A stretch of DNA of 64,000 bases, taken from the NCBI RefSeq assembly GCF_003574315.2, contig NZ_AP025739.1:5146001-5210000 (forward strand), in the 5' to 3' direction. Within the stretch, counting starts at the first letter, position 1; the number at the start of each line of letters is the position of its first letter. The notes under the pieces were generated by a model. It worked only from the letters and a program-made list of their open reading frames with translations. It did no database searches and was not told the DNA's origin. Positions 27,871 to 34,061 of the stretch are shown in pieces. The translations under genes were made by a program, and so were the position numbers. Source of the DNA: Capsulimonas corticalis (GTDB taxonomy: Bacteria; Armatimonadota; Armatimonadia; Armatimonadales; Capsulimonadaceae).

Positions 27871-27900
27871 TTGACAACGCGCGCCGGCCGCCAGTATAAT
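27871..27900 (+). promoter_or_regulatory. Promoter of the T-box operon
   Basis: TTGACA, an 18-bp spacer and TATAAT, both boxes perfect. A start near 27907 places the T-box leader directly at the 5' end of the mRNA. Confidence 0.92.
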
Positions 27901-27920
27901 AATACCAAAATTAGCAGTTA

Positions 27921-28217
27921 AAGGCGTTGACGAAGAGGAGTACGCCGTAGCGGATCGCAGACAGAGACCTGGGGCAGCTGAGAACCGGGGCGTGAGGCGC
28001 GGCGGAAATGACTTTCGAGCTGGGTGGGGGAAAGGCCGTTTTGGCTGAGTAGTTCACTCCGGGGGGCTCCCGTGATTGGGCTAGGGTCGAAAGAGTGCGC
28101 TCATACGCGCATCACTTGCACCCGTCAAGGCGGCGCGCCGCGAGGAGCCCGCGAAACAAGGTGGTACCACGAAGGTGACAAATGCCTCTCGTCCTTGTGC
28201 AGGGGCGGGAGGCATTT
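27921..28217 (+). promoter_or_regulatory. T-box riboswitch (tRNA-sensing leader)
   Basis: Stem I shows the AGTA (27939-27942)/GAA (28005-28007) loop-E pair closed by CGCCG/CGGCG, and the distal AGAGA (27963-27967) and GCTGAGAACC motifs. The specifier loop after GAA reads ATGAC; ATG (Met) at 28008-28010 followed by A is the only sense reading near the expected place, one base earlier than standard spacing. The antiterminator is unmistakable: ACAAGG (28156-28161), bulge TGGTACC (28162-28168), ACG, then CGT and CCTTGT (28190-28198). It competes with a hairpin AAATGCCTC/GAGGCATTT (28180-28217), which lacks a long T run. TGGT in the bulge fits a tRNA with A73. Confidence 0.9.
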
Positions 28218-28244
28218 CGTGCTGAAATGCCTGTCGCCAAATTT

Positions 28245-28274
28245 GACCCCGCGTCGGATTGAACCTCGCGGGTC
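28245..28274 (+). other. Second hairpin in the T-box leader
   Basis: GACCCCGCG and CGCGGGTC pair with a single bulged C, 15 bp before the AGGAGG of the first gene. In addition, GGCATTT of the terminator can pair with AAATGCC at 28225-28231, so the leader may have a third conformation. Confidence 0.4.
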
Positions 28275-28304
28275 GAACACCAGAGCTCAGGAGGCCGTCA
28301 CTTC

Positions 28305-29573
28305 ATGGCGAAAGTTTTAGGTTTGCGCTGCCGCGAATGCGGGCAGCAGTACGATAAGGCTCCGATTCACGTCTGCGAGCTGTGCTTCGGGCCGCTGGAA
28401 GTCCAGTACGATTTCACCGCCGGTCCTAAGATCACCCGTGAGCTGATCGAGGACGGCCCGCTGACGATGTGGCGCTACAAGGATCTGCTGCCGCTCGACG
28501 GCGAACCCACGGTCGGCAAGCACGTCGGCTATACCCCCCTGGTCAAGGCGGACAATCTGGCGAAGGCGCTCGGTCTGACCGGCGAAGTCTACGTCAAGAA
28601 CGATTCTGTCAGCCACCCAACCCTTTCCTTTAAGGACCGCGTTGTTGCGGTCGCGCTCTCCAAAGCGCGCGAGTTCGGATTCGATATCGTCGGCTGCGCC
28701 TCCACGGGGAACCTCGCGAACTCCGTCGCCGCCCACGCGGCCGAGGGAGGCTTCGAATCCTATATCTTTATTCCGCACGATCTGGAGCAGGGCAAGATCG
28801 TCGGCACCCTGATCTACGGCGCCAACGTCCTTTCCGTCCAGGGCAACTACGACGAAGTCAACCGCCTCTGCTCGGAAGTCGCCGGCAAGTATGGCTGGGG
28901 CCTGGCGAATGTGAACCTTCGCCCCTTCTATGGCGACGGCTCCAAGACCTTTGGCTATGAGATCGCCGAGCAGCTTGGCTGGCGCACCCCGCAGCATGTC
29001 GTCTGCCCATCGGCCGGCGGCTCGCTGGTCACCAAGATCTACAAGGCGTTCCAGGAGTTCCATAAGCTCGGTCTGATCGACGAAGTGCAGACGAAGATGT
29101 ACGTCGCGCAGGCGACGGGCTGCAATCCGATCTCCACCATGGTCAAGGAACAGACGGAGATCATGAAGCCGGTGCGGCCGAACACGATCGCCAAGTCCAT
29201 CGCGATCGGCAACCCGGCGGACGGCTACTACGCCGCCGAAACCTGCCGCAAGTCGGGGGGCTGGGCGGAAGACGTCACGGACGAAGAAGTGGTCGAGGGG
29301 ATTTCGCTGCTGGCGAAGACCGAAGGCATCTTCACCGAGACCGCCGGCGGCGTCACCGTCGCCGTCACGCGCAAGCTGATCGAGCAGGGCCGCATTCCGA
29401 AGGACGAGAGCGTCGTGATCTGTATCACCGGAAACGGCATGAAGACGATCGACGCCGTCGTTGGCAAAATCGGTCAGACGATCCCGATTTCGCCTTCGCT
29501 GGCGTCGCTGGAGATTGCGCTGTCGGAGCGCGGACTGGCCGCGAAGCCGGGCCGTCCGCTCGTCACTGCTTAA
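28305..29573 (+). CDS. thrC: Threonine synthase-like PLP enzyme
   Basis: 422 residues, ATG with AGGAGG 10 bp upstream. The N-terminal 30 residues form a zinc-ribbon-like knuckle (C9-x2-C12, C24-x2-C27). The PLP lysine is K110 in LSFKDR, followed by GCASTGNLANS (phosphate cradle) and PSAGGSLVTK. This is the family that converts O-phosphohomoserine to threonine. It heads a T-box operon with a HemQ-like protein, a MoaD/ThiS-like protein and a NIL protein, which are sulfur-linked rather than threonine-linked partners, and the T-box specifier looks like Met. It may therefore use O-phosphohomoserine (or a related ester) for homocysteine synthesis; this is inference. Confidence 0.85.
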   Translation: MAKVLGLRCRECGQQYDKAPIHVCELCFGPLEVQYDFTAGPKITRELIEDGPLTMWRYKDLLPLDGEPTVGKHVGYTPLVKADNLAKALGLTGEVYVKNDSVSHPTLSFKDRVVAVALSKAREFGFDIVGCASTGNLANSVAAHAAEGGFESYIFIPHDLEQGKIVGTLIYGANVLSVQGNYDEVNRLCSEVAGKYGWGLANVNLRPFYGDGSKTFGYEIAEQLGWRTPQHVVCPSAGGSLVTKIYKAFQEFHKLGLIDEVQTKMYVAQATGCNPISTMVKEQTEIMKPVRPNTIAKSIAIGNPADGYYAAETCRKSGGWAEDVTDEEVVEGISLLAKTEGIFTETAGGVTVAVTRKLIEQGRIPKDESVVICITGNGMKTIDAVVGKIGQTIPISPSLASLEIALSERGLAAKPGRPLVTA

Positions 29574-29587
29574 GAGAGAACGTACTT

Positions 29588-30310
29588 ATGGCAAATCTCG
29601 CCGCTGAGGAAAACGCGAAGCTGCCCCGGCAGTTCGTCAACTTCGCTTACTATAAACTGGATCCGGCCTATCTGCTGCTGGATGACGAGACGCGCAAGGC
29701 CGGCGTCGCGGAGCTAACGGAAGTCCTGAAGTCCTGGCAGAGCAAGATCCTGCTCTACCCGTACACCACGTTCGGCGTTCGCGCCGAAACGGACTTCCTG
29801 CTCTGGCGGATTTCGTATCATCTGGACGACTTCGAGAAGATGGCGACCGAGATGCGGCGCACGCATCTGGGCAAGTATCTTCAGACGCCGTACTCGTTCC
29901 TGGCGATGACCAAGACCAGCATCTATGTGGACGACCATGTCCATGAAGGGCAGGAAAGCGTCCGCAACCAGATCGTCATCGGCGGCGGCAAGTATCTCTT
30001 CGTCTACCCGTTCGTCAAGACCCGGCCATGGTATGTGCTGGACAAGGAAGAGCGCCAGCGCATCATGCGCCAGCATATCAAGTTCGGGCATGAGTTCCCG
30101 TCGGTCAAGCTGAACACCACATACTCGTTCGGCCTGGACGATCAGGACTTCGTGGTGGCGTTCGAGACCGACTATCCTGCGGACTTCCTGGATCTGGTGC
30201 AGGGCCTGCGCGAGACGGAATCCAGCCTGTTCACGCAGCGCGACACCCCGATCATCACCTGCACGCAGCAGGAGATCGGCGAGATGCTCGCGCATATCAG
30301 CGGCATTTAA
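29588..30310 (+). CDS. Chlorite dismutase-family (HemQ-like) protein
   Basis: 240 residues, 14 bp after the thrC-like stop. The family core is present: FLLWRISYHLDDFEKM, YPFVKTRPWYVL (the Tyr/Lys/Trp-Tyr stretch typical of HemQ), and MRQHIKFGHEFPSVK with the His that serves as proximal haem ligand, then NTTYSFGLDDQDFVVAFE and SLFTQRDTPI. HemQ decarboxylates coproheme III to haem b in monoderm and related bacteria. No other haem genes lie here. Its place between a threonine synthase-like gene and a sulfur carrier is odd and may mean a different job or a haem-dependent step. Confidence 0.82.
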   Translation: MANLAAEENAKLPRQFVNFAYYKLDPAYLLLDDETRKAGVAELTEVLKSWQSKILLYPYTTFGVRAETDFLLWRISYHLDDFEKMATEMRRTHLGKYLQTPYSFLAMTKTSIYVDDHVHEGQESVRNQIVIGGGKYLFVYPFVKTRPWYVLDKEERQRIMRQHIKFGHEFPSVKLNTTYSFGLDDQDFVVAFETDYPADFLDLVQGLRETESSLFTQRDTPIITCTQQEIGEMLAHISGI

Positions 30311-30369: not shown

Positions 30370-30654
30370 ATGGCAGTCAGCGTATTGATTCCCACACCGC
30401 TTCGGGGTTTGACGGCGGACCAGGACACTGTGGAGACGCAAGAGGGAACGATTGCGGAGCTTATCCAGTCTCTGGAGAGCGAGTATCCCGGCATTGGCAA
30501 TCGTCTCAGTTCCGAAGACGGCGTGCTTCGCCGGTTCATCAACATCTATGTCAACGGCGAAGATATCCGGTTCCTTCAGGGCGCCGATACGCCGGTCAAG
30601 AACGGCGACGAAGTATCGATCGTACCGGCGATTGCCGGCGGGAAGGACTGTTAA
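30370..30654 (+). CDS. MoaD/ThiS family sulfur-carrier protein with C-terminal extension
   Basis: 94 residues; GAGGAG lies 9 bp before the ATG at 30370. Beta-grasp protein: VSVLIPTPLRGLT, IAELIQSLESEYPG, RRFINIYVNGEDIRFLQG and the strand GDEVSIVPAIAGG. In carriers the C-terminal Gly-Gly is adenylated and becomes a thiocarboxylate; here three residues (Lys-Asp-Cys) follow G90-G91, so it would need trimming first, as described for HcyS of Wolinella and QbsE. It directly abuts the NIL-domain gene (stop and ATG adjacent). A role as sulfur donor for homocysteine or cysteine synthesis is the best guess. Confidence 0.85.
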   Translation: MAVSVLIPTPLRGLTADQDTVETQEGTIAELIQSLESEYPGIGNRLSSEDGVLRRFINIYVNGEDIRFLQGADTPVKNGDEVSIVPAIAGGKDC

Positions 30655-30914: not shown

Positions 30915-30953
30915 CGCCCTCCGGCCCCACTCGGGCCGGAGGGCGTCTTTTTT
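30915..30953. terminator. Bidirectional terminator
   Basis: CGCCCTCCGGCCC and GGGCCGGAGGGCG form a 13-bp stem; on the + strand TCTTTTTT follows. It separates the T-box operon from the convergent pilus gene, whose stop lies on its right edge. Confidence 0.88.
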
Positions 30954-32652
30954 ATGTCAGCATTCCCGTCACGCGCTGCCAGGAGAGCACGTCGTAGTGG
31001 TTTCCGGTCGTTGGGAAGAACGGCGGCGGGTGATCGGCGAGGCGGGTATCGTAATGGTACTGTTCTTGATAGCCGCTGGCGAGCGAGCCGTCGGAGTTCG
31101 CGTAGGCGAAGATACCGGACGATTGGGTGATGACGCCGCCGATGGATGTCATGGTTCCATTCGAGCTGGAGGAGGGGATCGACGGGTTCGCCGCGTCGAA
31201 CGTGGACGTCGCGAAGATATTCCCGTCGTACTCCAGGTTCGGTCCCGCCCCGCTTGCTACGGAGATATGGTGGCCTAAGAGGCCGAACACGCCGGCTTTC
31301 TGGTTGAAATTGGTGTCCGACGCCTGCGCGATGGACAGGTTTCGCGCCGTGTTATAAGTGATCGAACCGGTCAGCGTGACGTCTTTGGAGGCGGCGATAT
31401 CGGTCGCGATCGTCATTTGCGATCGATAGGTGATGTTGCCGGATGAATCGACTTTGTTGTCCGCGATCTGGCCGCTCAGTCCCGTGATATTCCCGTCGGA
31501 ATAGACCATGCCGTTCGGCGTGCCTGTGAGCGTGGTCATGGTGTGGACGCCGCTGACGCTCTTGTCGACCTTCGTCTGGTTGTTGCTTGGGTCGACCGTG
31601 ATCGTCTGAATGGTCGTTCCCTGAGTGACGGTGATGACCTGGTTGCCGCTGCCGTTGACGCTCAGGGCGACCACGCTGTTGCCGTGCAGGAAAATGCCGC
31701 CGGAGACGGTTCCCGAAGAGTTGACGATCGTGGCGCCGGCCGTTGTCGGCGTTCCCGCCGGCGCGGTGGTGCAGGGCGTCGGCGCCGGTAAGCCCATCGC
31801 GGCGTACTCCTGGGTATAGTCCGTGGTGGGAAGCGGGATTTGCGCCGAGTTCGGGATTTTTTTGCCGGAGCTATCGAGCAGGAAGTTGCCGTTGGCGTCC
31901 GTTTTATATCCCGTCGTCATACTCGGCTGCCCGCTCGTGGCGATACTTTTATAGTCGCTGATCGAGCTGGGGCTCGACACCACGCCGATGCTGTTCTTCC
32001 ACCATGTTACATTGCCCGAGACGGAAAACGCATCGTCGCCCGTGTACGTAAACATGGGGTTTGCCGTGTTATTGGACTTCCACAGGATGGTGGTTTGCAG
32101 ACCGTCCGCATCATTGGAGTGAAACGGCCCTTCGAAATGGTTGTTAAAGTCCCAAAATCCCGCGCCGTCGTTCACCGTGAAGTATGCGTACTTCCCGAAG
32201 CTCGCCTGCTGCACATAGACACGCACGGTCTGTGAGGCGCCGCTGGGCATCGTCGCCTGCGATTCGATCACATAATGTTTCTGCGTGCTCGTCGGATTGG
32301 TCGCATCGCCATCGATCCTCACCGTCAGAGTCGTTCCGGTCTGTCCAAACGGCGCCGTGATCGTTCCATTGGTGCCGTAGAAGTTTGTCATGGGGTGCAG
32401 GGCGTTGTCGTCCGGCGGGCTCGCCTGCTGCGTGAGCCAGGCGATGGCGAGGTCGACGCCGGAATCCGCCATGTTGAACGCTTCCGTGGTGTCGTTGCGG
32501 TGCTGCGACATTTGAATGGTCGCGCCGACCAGGGACACCAGACCCAGCGCCAGCGTGGACATGGCGAAGATCAGCACCAACGATGTCGCAAGAGCCGCGC
32601 CGCGCCGCCGGGAGGCGAGTCTTTTGAGCGTGATGGGTTGCAGAGTAGACAT
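30952..32652 (-). CDS. PilX-like type IV pilus assembly protein
   Basis: 566 residues. The N-terminus is RRRGAALATSLVLIFAMSTLALGLVSL, a class III-like hydrophobic helix as in PilX-type minor pilins, followed by a conserved Glu in NDTTEAFNMADSGVDLAIAWL. The rest is a large beta-rich region with YFTVNDGAGFWDFNNHFEGPFHSND and many Gly/Ser/Thr/Asn turns, a type seen in surface-exposed pilus proteins. It follows 18 bp after a PilW-like gene, so the three pilin genes form an operon. It could be a tip or adhesion component; not tested here. Confidence 0.7.
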   Translation of the reverse strand: MSTLQPITLKRLASRRRGAALATSLVLIFAMSTLALGLVSLVGATIQMSQHRNDTTEAFNMADSGVDLAIAWLTQQASPPDDNALHPMTNFYGTNGTITAPFGQTGTTLTVRIDGDATNPTSTQKHYVIESQATMPSGASQTVRVYVQQASFGKYAYFTVNDGAGFWDFNNHFEGPFHSNDADGLQTTILWKSNNTANPMFTYTGDDAFSVSGNVTWWKNSIGVVSSPSSISDYKSIATSGQPSMTTGYKTDANGNFLLDSSGKKIPNSAQIPLPTTDYTQEYAAMGLPAPTPCTTAPAGTPTTAGATIVNSSGTVSGGIFLHGNSVVALSVNGSGNQVITVTQGTTIQTITVDPSNNQTKVDKSVSGVHTMTTLTGTPNGMVYSDGNITGLSGQIADNKVDSSGNITYRSQMTIATDIAASKDVTLTGSITYNTARNLSIAQASDTNFNQKAGVFGLLGHHISVASGAGPNLEYDGNIFATSTFDAANPSIPSSSSNGTMTSIGGVITQSSGIFAYANSDGSLASGYQEQYHYDTRLADHPPPFFPTTGNHYDVLSWQRVTGMLT

Positions 32653-32670
32653 TGCCGGAGTTCTTTCTCG

Positions 32671-33456
32671 TTAGTACTGCGTGCGTCCATGAGCGCCGTT
32701 GGATGTGACGCCGAATGGATTGTGATCGCGCAGGTAAACGCACTCGCCCGTGAGCTGCGTCACATTCCCATTCGCCGCATCCGACGACGTGTAACCATGG
32801 ATGGGATCGTAGTAGGAGCTGACGATTTTGATCTTCACTTCATTCGCAATGGGCGTCACGCCGTCCGGCATATACGGCTGGATAAATTGGACGGCGTTGG
32901 GCAAGGGCGCGACGGATTTGATAATCGCGCGATTGACGGCTTGCCCTTGATCGATCCCGTTCTCCCAGAGGCACGTGCCGGTATTAGGGTTGGGCGTGCC
33001 GTTAGTGTTGGAGCGGTAGTAGTTCAGACTGACGCCGTCGTTTTTGACGTCCCAAAGGCTCGTACCGCCCGTGAGCGCCTGCGCCGATCCTCCCGAGGTC
33101 AGCTTCACGGATGTGGACGAGTTCGCCGCCGGCATGACGATATGGATCCCCGTGACGGCCACGTAGTTTCCCGTACTGTCGACGGCGTCATAGGTCGTGC
33201 CGTAAGTTCCCCCGTCCATGAGGGCGAATGAGCGCGCCTCGCGCAGATCATCCGAAACGGACTGGATGCCTCGGGCGGCGTCCAGCGAGGAGCTAGAAGC
33301 ACCGTTGACGCTCGCGCACAATCGGAGCATGGTGATAAACAGCGACATGACGCCCAGCATCAGCAGCGAGAACACCCCCATGCCGATCATGATCTCGACG
33401 AGGGTGAATCCGCGCGATTTGGAAAGTCCGCCGTTCCGCATGGTGTCAAATCTCAT
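32671..33456 (-). CDS. PilW-like minor prepilin
   Basis: 261 residues. The frame is open to 33960 but overlaps the upstream gene; the ATG at 33456 gives a proper prepilin leader (MRFDTMRNGGLSKSRG|FTLVEIM), cleaved by PilD before Phe, with Glu at +5. The following hydrophobic helix is IGMGVFSLLMLGVMSLF. The globular part is polar with few charges. It starts 17 bp after the PilV-like gene. In known pili PilV, PilW and PilX form the tip complex. Confidence 0.78.
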   Translation of the reverse strand: MRFDTMRNGGLSKSRGFTLVEIMIGMGVFSLLMLGVMSLFITMLRLCASVNGASSSSLDAARGIQSVSDDLREARSFALMDGGTYGTTYDAVDSTGNYVAVTGIHIVMPAANSSTSVKLTSGGSAQALTGGTSLWDVKNDGVSLNYYRSNTNGTPNPNTGTCLWENGIDQGQAVNRAIIKSVAPLPNAVQFIQPYMPDGVTPIANEVKIKIVSSYYDPIHGYTSSDAANGNVTQLTGECVYLRDHNPFGVTSNGAHGRTQY

Positions 33457-33473
33457 AACGTTGCCTTGCGCCG

Positions 33474-33983
33474 CTATCGAGCCGCGATGATCGTATGCGT
33501 GGTAAAGTTTCCGGAGCTCTGGCTGCCGCCTTGCCATGCGATGGTGACCGTGGCTTGAACGGCCTGCGCGAGCGTGGGCGCGTTCGAGCCGGTAGATGTC
33601 AGCGCCTGGCTGATCCATATCTTGCCGGTGCTGCCAGGCGGGAAATACCCGACGGAATTGCCGTTGTCGATCAGGTCGTCGACAACAGTGAACGAAAACG
33701 AGCCGTCCGAATTTTGCGTCGCCGAGTCGACAACGCCGCGTCCGTACAGCGCCGAGCCGTTCATTCCCGTAAAGCCCAGATCGCGCAATTGATCGATCTT
33801 CTGCTGGGCCAGCAGGGACGCCTGCGCGTAGTTGGCGCCGACATGGCCGGCGCGCGTGGCGACCGGGAAAGTCGCCCCAAACAGCAGCACCATCATTCCA
33901 AAAACGAACAGAGAGATCGCCAGCTCCACGAGGGTGAAGCCGCCGTTTCGTCGCATCCATGTTTTCTGGCGTGAGTGATTCAT
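33474..33983 (-). CDS. PilV-like minor prepilin
   Basis: 169 residues from the ATG at 33983 (a TTG at 34004 would add seven residues). Leader MNHSRQKTWMRRNGG|FTLVELAISLFVFGMMVLLFG with the PilD site and Glu +5. The body has QASLLAQQKIDQLRDLGFTGM, the segment typical of PilV/type IV pilus modification proteins. First gene of the pilV-pilW-pilX-like operon, downstream of a DUF2723 glycosyltransferase gene on the same strand. Confidence 0.78.
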   Translation of the reverse strand: MNHSRQKTWMRRNGGFTLVELAISLFVFGMMVLLFGATFPVATRAGHVGANYAQASLLAQQKIDQLRDLGFTGMNGSALYGRGVVDSATQNSDGSFSFTVVDDLIDNGNSVGYFPPGSTGKIWISQALTSTGSNAPTLAQAVQATVTIAWQGGSQSSGNFTTHTIIAAR

Positions 33984-34061
33984 GTGTCTGCTTTCTGATA
34001 ACAATGCTTACTTGGAATTATGCCGTTATTAGGGCGCGGCGGTATCCGTAAAGATAAGTGT

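Follow-up and report, generated by a model that had tools for sequence, protein, structure and literature searches.

Sulfur-carrier-dependent cysteine synthesis in Mycobacterium, the CysO-CysM-Mec+ system, combines a PLP enzyme and a MoaD-like carrier with a JAMM protease and a loading enzyme of the E1-rhodanese type. Methionine synthesis genes, such as metICFE-mdh of Staphylococcus and met genes of Lactobacillales, are controlled by Met T-boxes with an AUG specifier, a Stem I with loop E, a T-box bulge and a terminator/antiterminator pair (PMC3771891, PMC2494555). The met T-box of Staphylococcus aureus binds the initiator tRNA, and a change of its specifier left binding unaltered (PMC3771891). 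In Firmicutes, Met T-boxes are known to have taken the place of SAM riboswitches (PMC3771891, PMC3766115). As Hasebe 2024 is cited in PMC12172450, MetM of Streptomyces albulus is a homocysteine synthase whose gene is preceded by a SAM riboswitch, and metM-metO, in which metO is a sulfur-carrier-family gene, provides homocysteine from O-phosphohomoserine. A cyanobacterial homologue, 51.6% identical to MetM, acted as a threonine synthase in vitro, and methionine in cells was not raised by it (PMC12172450).

The window analysed here is a stretch of 64,000 nucleotides from the genome of Capsulimonas corticalis (contig NZ_AP025739.1), a member of the Armatimonadota; the leader and operon described below lie on its plus strand. 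The leader shares the AUG specifier, the Stem I with loop E and the T-box bulge, together with an antiterminator and a candidate terminator, with the Met T-boxes of Staphylococcus and Lactobacillales, and we consider it highly probable that a metM-(hemQ)-metO operon for the synthesis of homocysteine for methionine is under the control of a T-box riboswitch specific for tRNA-Met. Each part is of a known kind; what varies is the way they are combined and the shortened specifier loop.

Rfam model RF00230 was matched over its full length (model positions 1-219) at 27918-28199, with 78.2 bits and an E-value of 2.4e-17 in cmscan, in agreement with the preliminary description of a complete T-box. The default Rfam scan of the window at the gathering threshold listed nothing; the T-box was missed there because its score is below the RF00230 gathering score of 93 bits. 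The 7.6-Mb host genome contains three T-boxes in total, including this one. A sigma-70-type promoter was found at 27871-27900, with 12/12 consensus bases where 0.2 promoter-like sites were expected in shuffles. It had been called perfect, which is true of the exact hexamers TTGACA and TATAAT but not of the spacer of 18 nt instead of 17 nt. Stem I (27918-28020) carries the loop-E bases AGTA (27939-27942) opposite GAA (28005-28007) in the RF00230 alignment, its helices covary in 12 leaders, and its distal motifs are AGAGA and GCTGAGAACC. The antiterminator ACAAGG-[TGGTACC]-ACG...CGT-CCTTGT was placed at 28156-28198 by the RF00230 alignment and by folding, and its T-box bulge TGGT (28162-28165) is complementary to the ACCA end of a tRNA. 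These Stem I motifs and the antiterminator had all been described beforehand, and each was present in the sequence at its described place. A Shine-Dalgarno sequence, AGGAGG, is located at 28289-28294.

The loop following GAA reads ATGAC, as had been reported. To place the codon, 13 Armatimonadota leaders were compared, one per genome and each upstream of an orthologue of the downstream gene. AUG followed by a purine was present in 13/13 leaders, and in the window this corresponds to ATG at 28008-28010. The canonical GAA-N-AUG-R spacing was found in five of them, with the loop reading A-AUG-A in L035 and L036, A-AUG-G in L038 and L039, and C-AUG-G in L047. The spacer base was missing in the other eight, where AUG-A or AUG-G directly follows GAA (the window, L037, L040, L042, L043, L045, L046 and L056); this, together with the phylum and the metM-like target, sets these leaders apart from the Staphylococcus and Lactobacillales Met T-boxes. 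On the 3' side of the codon, the window has the purine A28011 and then the helix CTTT (28012-28015) paired with GAAG (27932-27935). In the alignment of 12 leaders, this helix was paired in 48/48 cells, and both bases had changed in three of its four pairs; the helix above loop E covaried too. The whole-structure score of the 12 leaders was 0.415, whereas shuffles scored 0.160 +/- 0.029 and sliding the structure gave no more than 0.158. The codon position is pinned because AUG-R-helix is the canonical 3' arrangement and the helix covaries. By this comparison the missing base is on the GAA side of the codon, the 3' side is canonical, and the specifier is AUG (Met). The preliminary description had favoured Met despite the unusual spacing and had named a covariance-guided alignment of homologues as the check; that alignment settled on AUG, textbook-spaced in five leaders, and not on a threonine codon.

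A threonine-specific T-box with a displaced ACU codon was weighed against this reading, as ACT does occur two bases 3' of the canonical position. The C and U of that codon are within the covarying helix, so no threonine codon is readable there; the base after AUG is G in five leaders, which hence contain no ACU; and host tRNA-Thr, with C73, does not pair with UGGU. This candidate was rejected on the covariation and on C73, and its probability is practically negligible. Of the other two T-boxes of the host, the one upstream of ilvB reads CUC (Leu) and the one upstream of valS reads GUC (Val), both with normal spacing. Just upstream of the ilvB T-box, a long GC-rich inverted repeat (L061 2021-2200) gave spurious plant miRNA matches.

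The match between the bulge and the discriminator base bears on which methionine tRNA is the ligand. The host elongator tRNA-Met has A73, whereas both initiator tRNA-Met genes and the tRNA-Thr genes that were read have C73, and the UGGU bulge therefore fits the elongator and neither the initiator nor tRNA-Thr. The earlier argument that TGGT fits A73 is thus valid for this genome, where it distinguishes Met from Thr as well. Elongator A73 and initiator C73 were found wherever these tRNAs were recovered from leader-bearing relatives, recovery being incomplete in some genomes. The bulge was UGGU in 9/13 leaders, UGGA in 3/13 and UGGG in 1/13 (L040), so the A73 match is imperfect across the set, since UGGA and UGGG do not pair with A73. 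An initiator tRNA-fMet ligand would follow the S. aureus precedent (PMC3771891), and the UGGG of L040 would pair with C73; with a UGGU bulge facing C73 initiators and an A73 elongator in the host, and U at this bulge position in most leaders, we regard an initiator ligand as unlikely. The bulge thus predicts elongator tRNA-Met, unlike the Staphylococcus Met T-box, and because the S. aureus element takes the initiator this assignment is kept as a prediction from sequence. All initiator tRNA-Met genes recovered from the Armatimonadota relatives had C73, typically together with U72 (L189, L190 and relatives). Separately, 18 tRNA genes, some of them for divergent Met and Ile tRNAs, form a dense cluster in the host genome that may derive from a mobile element (L178, G000:C1:1204000-1214000).

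A competing hairpin at 28178-28220 was identified as the candidate terminator by folding and by the equivalents with T-runs in relatives. Its fold of -27.6 kcal/mol (z -5.4; 0/200 shuffles equally stable) bears out the earlier proposal of a hairpin exclusive with the antiterminator. The U-tract 3' of the hairpin is poor (GGCATTTCGTG, a weak AUUUCG tract), and the terminator scan of the window leader returned no terminator-like site. In addition, an extra 9-bp hairpin at 28210-28232 (AGGCATTTC/GAAATGCCT), absent in the sister leader L037, could compete with the terminator. The missing U-run, the negative scan and this possible competitor would be compatible with control by another mode, e.g. 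RNA stability or translation. Most orthologous leaders, however, retain the terminator and its T-run in the same place, which makes such a mode rather doubtful, and control by antitermination remains the preferred reading.

The gene behind the leader (28305-29573) encodes a PLP-dependent protein annotated as threonine synthase, which matched TIGR00260 (thrC) well above the cut-off. The protein shares the fold family and the PLP-lysine motif SFKDR with ThrC; unlike ThrC, it has an N-terminal Cys4 motif (C9/C12/C24/C27) and falls in a separate clade. In a tree of 55 sequences, 41 metM-like proteins were split from 13 ThrC proteins by a branch with 100/100 support. A second host protein (G000:C1:6866484-6867512) was 36% identical to the window protein and 59% identical to an actinobacterial ThrC. 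Its gene lies ~1 kb on the downstream side of the homoserine dehydrogenase gene, separated from it by a single ORF. A few genes from hom-thrC, a protein matching TIGR02535 above cut-off is the proposed homoserine kinase; the canonical thrB model gave only a weak match in the host. The ThrC orthologue linked to hom is thus this copy and not the window gene. The window gene most likely encodes a MetM-like homocysteine synthase, and the label of threonine synthase given in the preliminary description would have to be dropped, with a separate ThrC elsewhere in the genome. The puzzle of a Met T-box in front of a threonine synthase would then be resolved because the gene, and not the RNA, was mislabelled.

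A gene of the HemQ/chlorite-dismutase family (29588-30310) starts 14 nt after metM and is followed by a metO-like sulfur carrier gene of the ThiS/MoaD/SAMP1 family (30370-30654), both assigned by family match. The carrier ends in AGG-KDC, and GG would become exposed only after trimming. The HemQ-family gene between metM and metO was found only in the family of the host and not in other relatives. Downstream of the operon, at 30952-34004, minus-strand genes encode proteins with pilin-like N-termini (GFTLVE) and secreted-type proteins. A MoaD-like ORF adjoined or was near the gene in 73/80 homologues from many phyla. The Nonomuraea homologue, 49% identical over 99% and on a long branch in the tree, is directly followed by the carrier and preceded by a SAM riboswitch (RF00162, 68.7 bits, cut-off 44.4); this is the arrangement given for S. 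albulus metM-metO in PMC12172450. As far as the S. albulus system is described there, it and the host share the pairing of a PLP enzyme of the ThrC family with an adjacent sulfur carrier protein and, as predicted for the host, a methionine-responsive RNA control and the replacement of acyl-homoserine routes. Here, in contrast, the RNA is a T-box and not a SAM riboswitch, a HemQ-family gene lies between, and the activity is predicted.

Profile searches of the host genome gave no match to PF01053 (MetB, MetC, MetY, MetZ), TIGR01392 (MetX) or TIGR01001 (MetA), and a full MetH was present. From these searches, the metM-like gene is most likely the only route of the host to homocysteine, the methionine precursor. 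A JAMM protease adjoins a fused ThiS-ThiF-rhodanese protein (L286 684-2619, G000:C1 about 6181900-6183400); machinery of this type, a JAMM protease with ThiS-ThiF(E1)-rhodanese, serves to load such carriers with sulfur. The host has parts like those of CysO-CysM-Mec+, with the JAMM and E1-rhodanese proteins encoded elsewhere in the genome, but a different PLP enzyme and product, and presumably O-phosphohomoserine instead of O-phosphoserine. Among 61 genomes, PF01053 was absent from 15/26 with metM and from 5/35 without it (Fisher p 0.0007; p 0.009 with one genome per genus), and MetX was present in 7/26 and 27/35, respectively. PF01053 enzymes were kept beside metM in 11/26 of the metM-bearing relatives. 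Five genomes (G026, G031, G044, G053 and G057) had neither metM nor PF01053 and may be methionine auxotrophs or use another route.

It could still be argued that the window gene is a second genuine threonine synthase, with methionine shortage acting through the T-box to divert flux at the O-phosphohomoserine branch point. The TIGR00260 match and the activity of the cyanobacterial homologue (PMC12172450) are in line with this, but more threonine synthesis under methionine starvation would be counterproductive, the ThrC orthologue near homoserine dehydrogenase is in the same genome, and methionine is favoured by the sulfur carrier linkage and by the SAM riboswitch upstream of a homologue. Under this explanation the host would also have no known homocysteine enzyme, and we judge it very unlikely. 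A homocysteine synthase is preferred, which may be bifunctional and may retain some threonine synthase activity, because the cyanobacterial homologue has that activity (PMC12172450).

All T-box-bearing genes in the tree fell within one Armatimonadota clade of 14 (support 100/98). Two members of this clade, L041 and L044, had no T-box upstream of metM. In the former (genome G020), a cysteine-synthase-like gene (L041 6245-7183) directly precedes metM, with no T-box there, and the end of the corresponding upstream sequence in L044 is similar. Among 80 homologues, the T-box motif was found upstream of only two, both from Armatimonadota, and upstream of 0/78 from other phyla. No detected T-box adjoined the MetX or PF01053 genes of the relatives. 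A partial literature search, with TBDB outside its scope, returned no paper describing a T-box upstream of a metM-like gene.

In the proposed mechanism, methionine shortage would leave elongator tRNA-Met uncharged, and its CAU anticodon would pair with the AUG specifier while its ACCA end would pair with the UGGU bulge. These contacts would stabilise the antiterminator and block the 28178-28220 hairpin, so that transcription would enter the operon. The MetM-like enzyme would then form homocysteine from O-phosphohomoserine and the thiocarboxylate sulfur of MetO, and MetH would methylate homocysteine to methionine.

The AUG specifier codon led to a proposed correction of the enzyme annotation. 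It is likely that metM-metO of Armatimonadota is controlled by a Met T-box in place of the actinobacterial SAM riboswitch, and that many of these genomes have no other route to homocysteine; that these T-boxes tolerate a missing spacer base between loop E and codon; and that many MoaD-adjacent threonine synthase genes across phyla are methionine genes. The same gene family would thus be under two unrelated RNA sensors, the SAM riboswitch and the Met T-box, and a T-box whose specifier loop is naturally shortened offers material for testing how codon position is set. A widespread family that is annotated as threonine synthase and linked to sulfur carriers seems to consist of homocysteine synthases, a reading that would close the gap which methionine synthesis appears to have in organisms that lack MetA, MetX and MetY.
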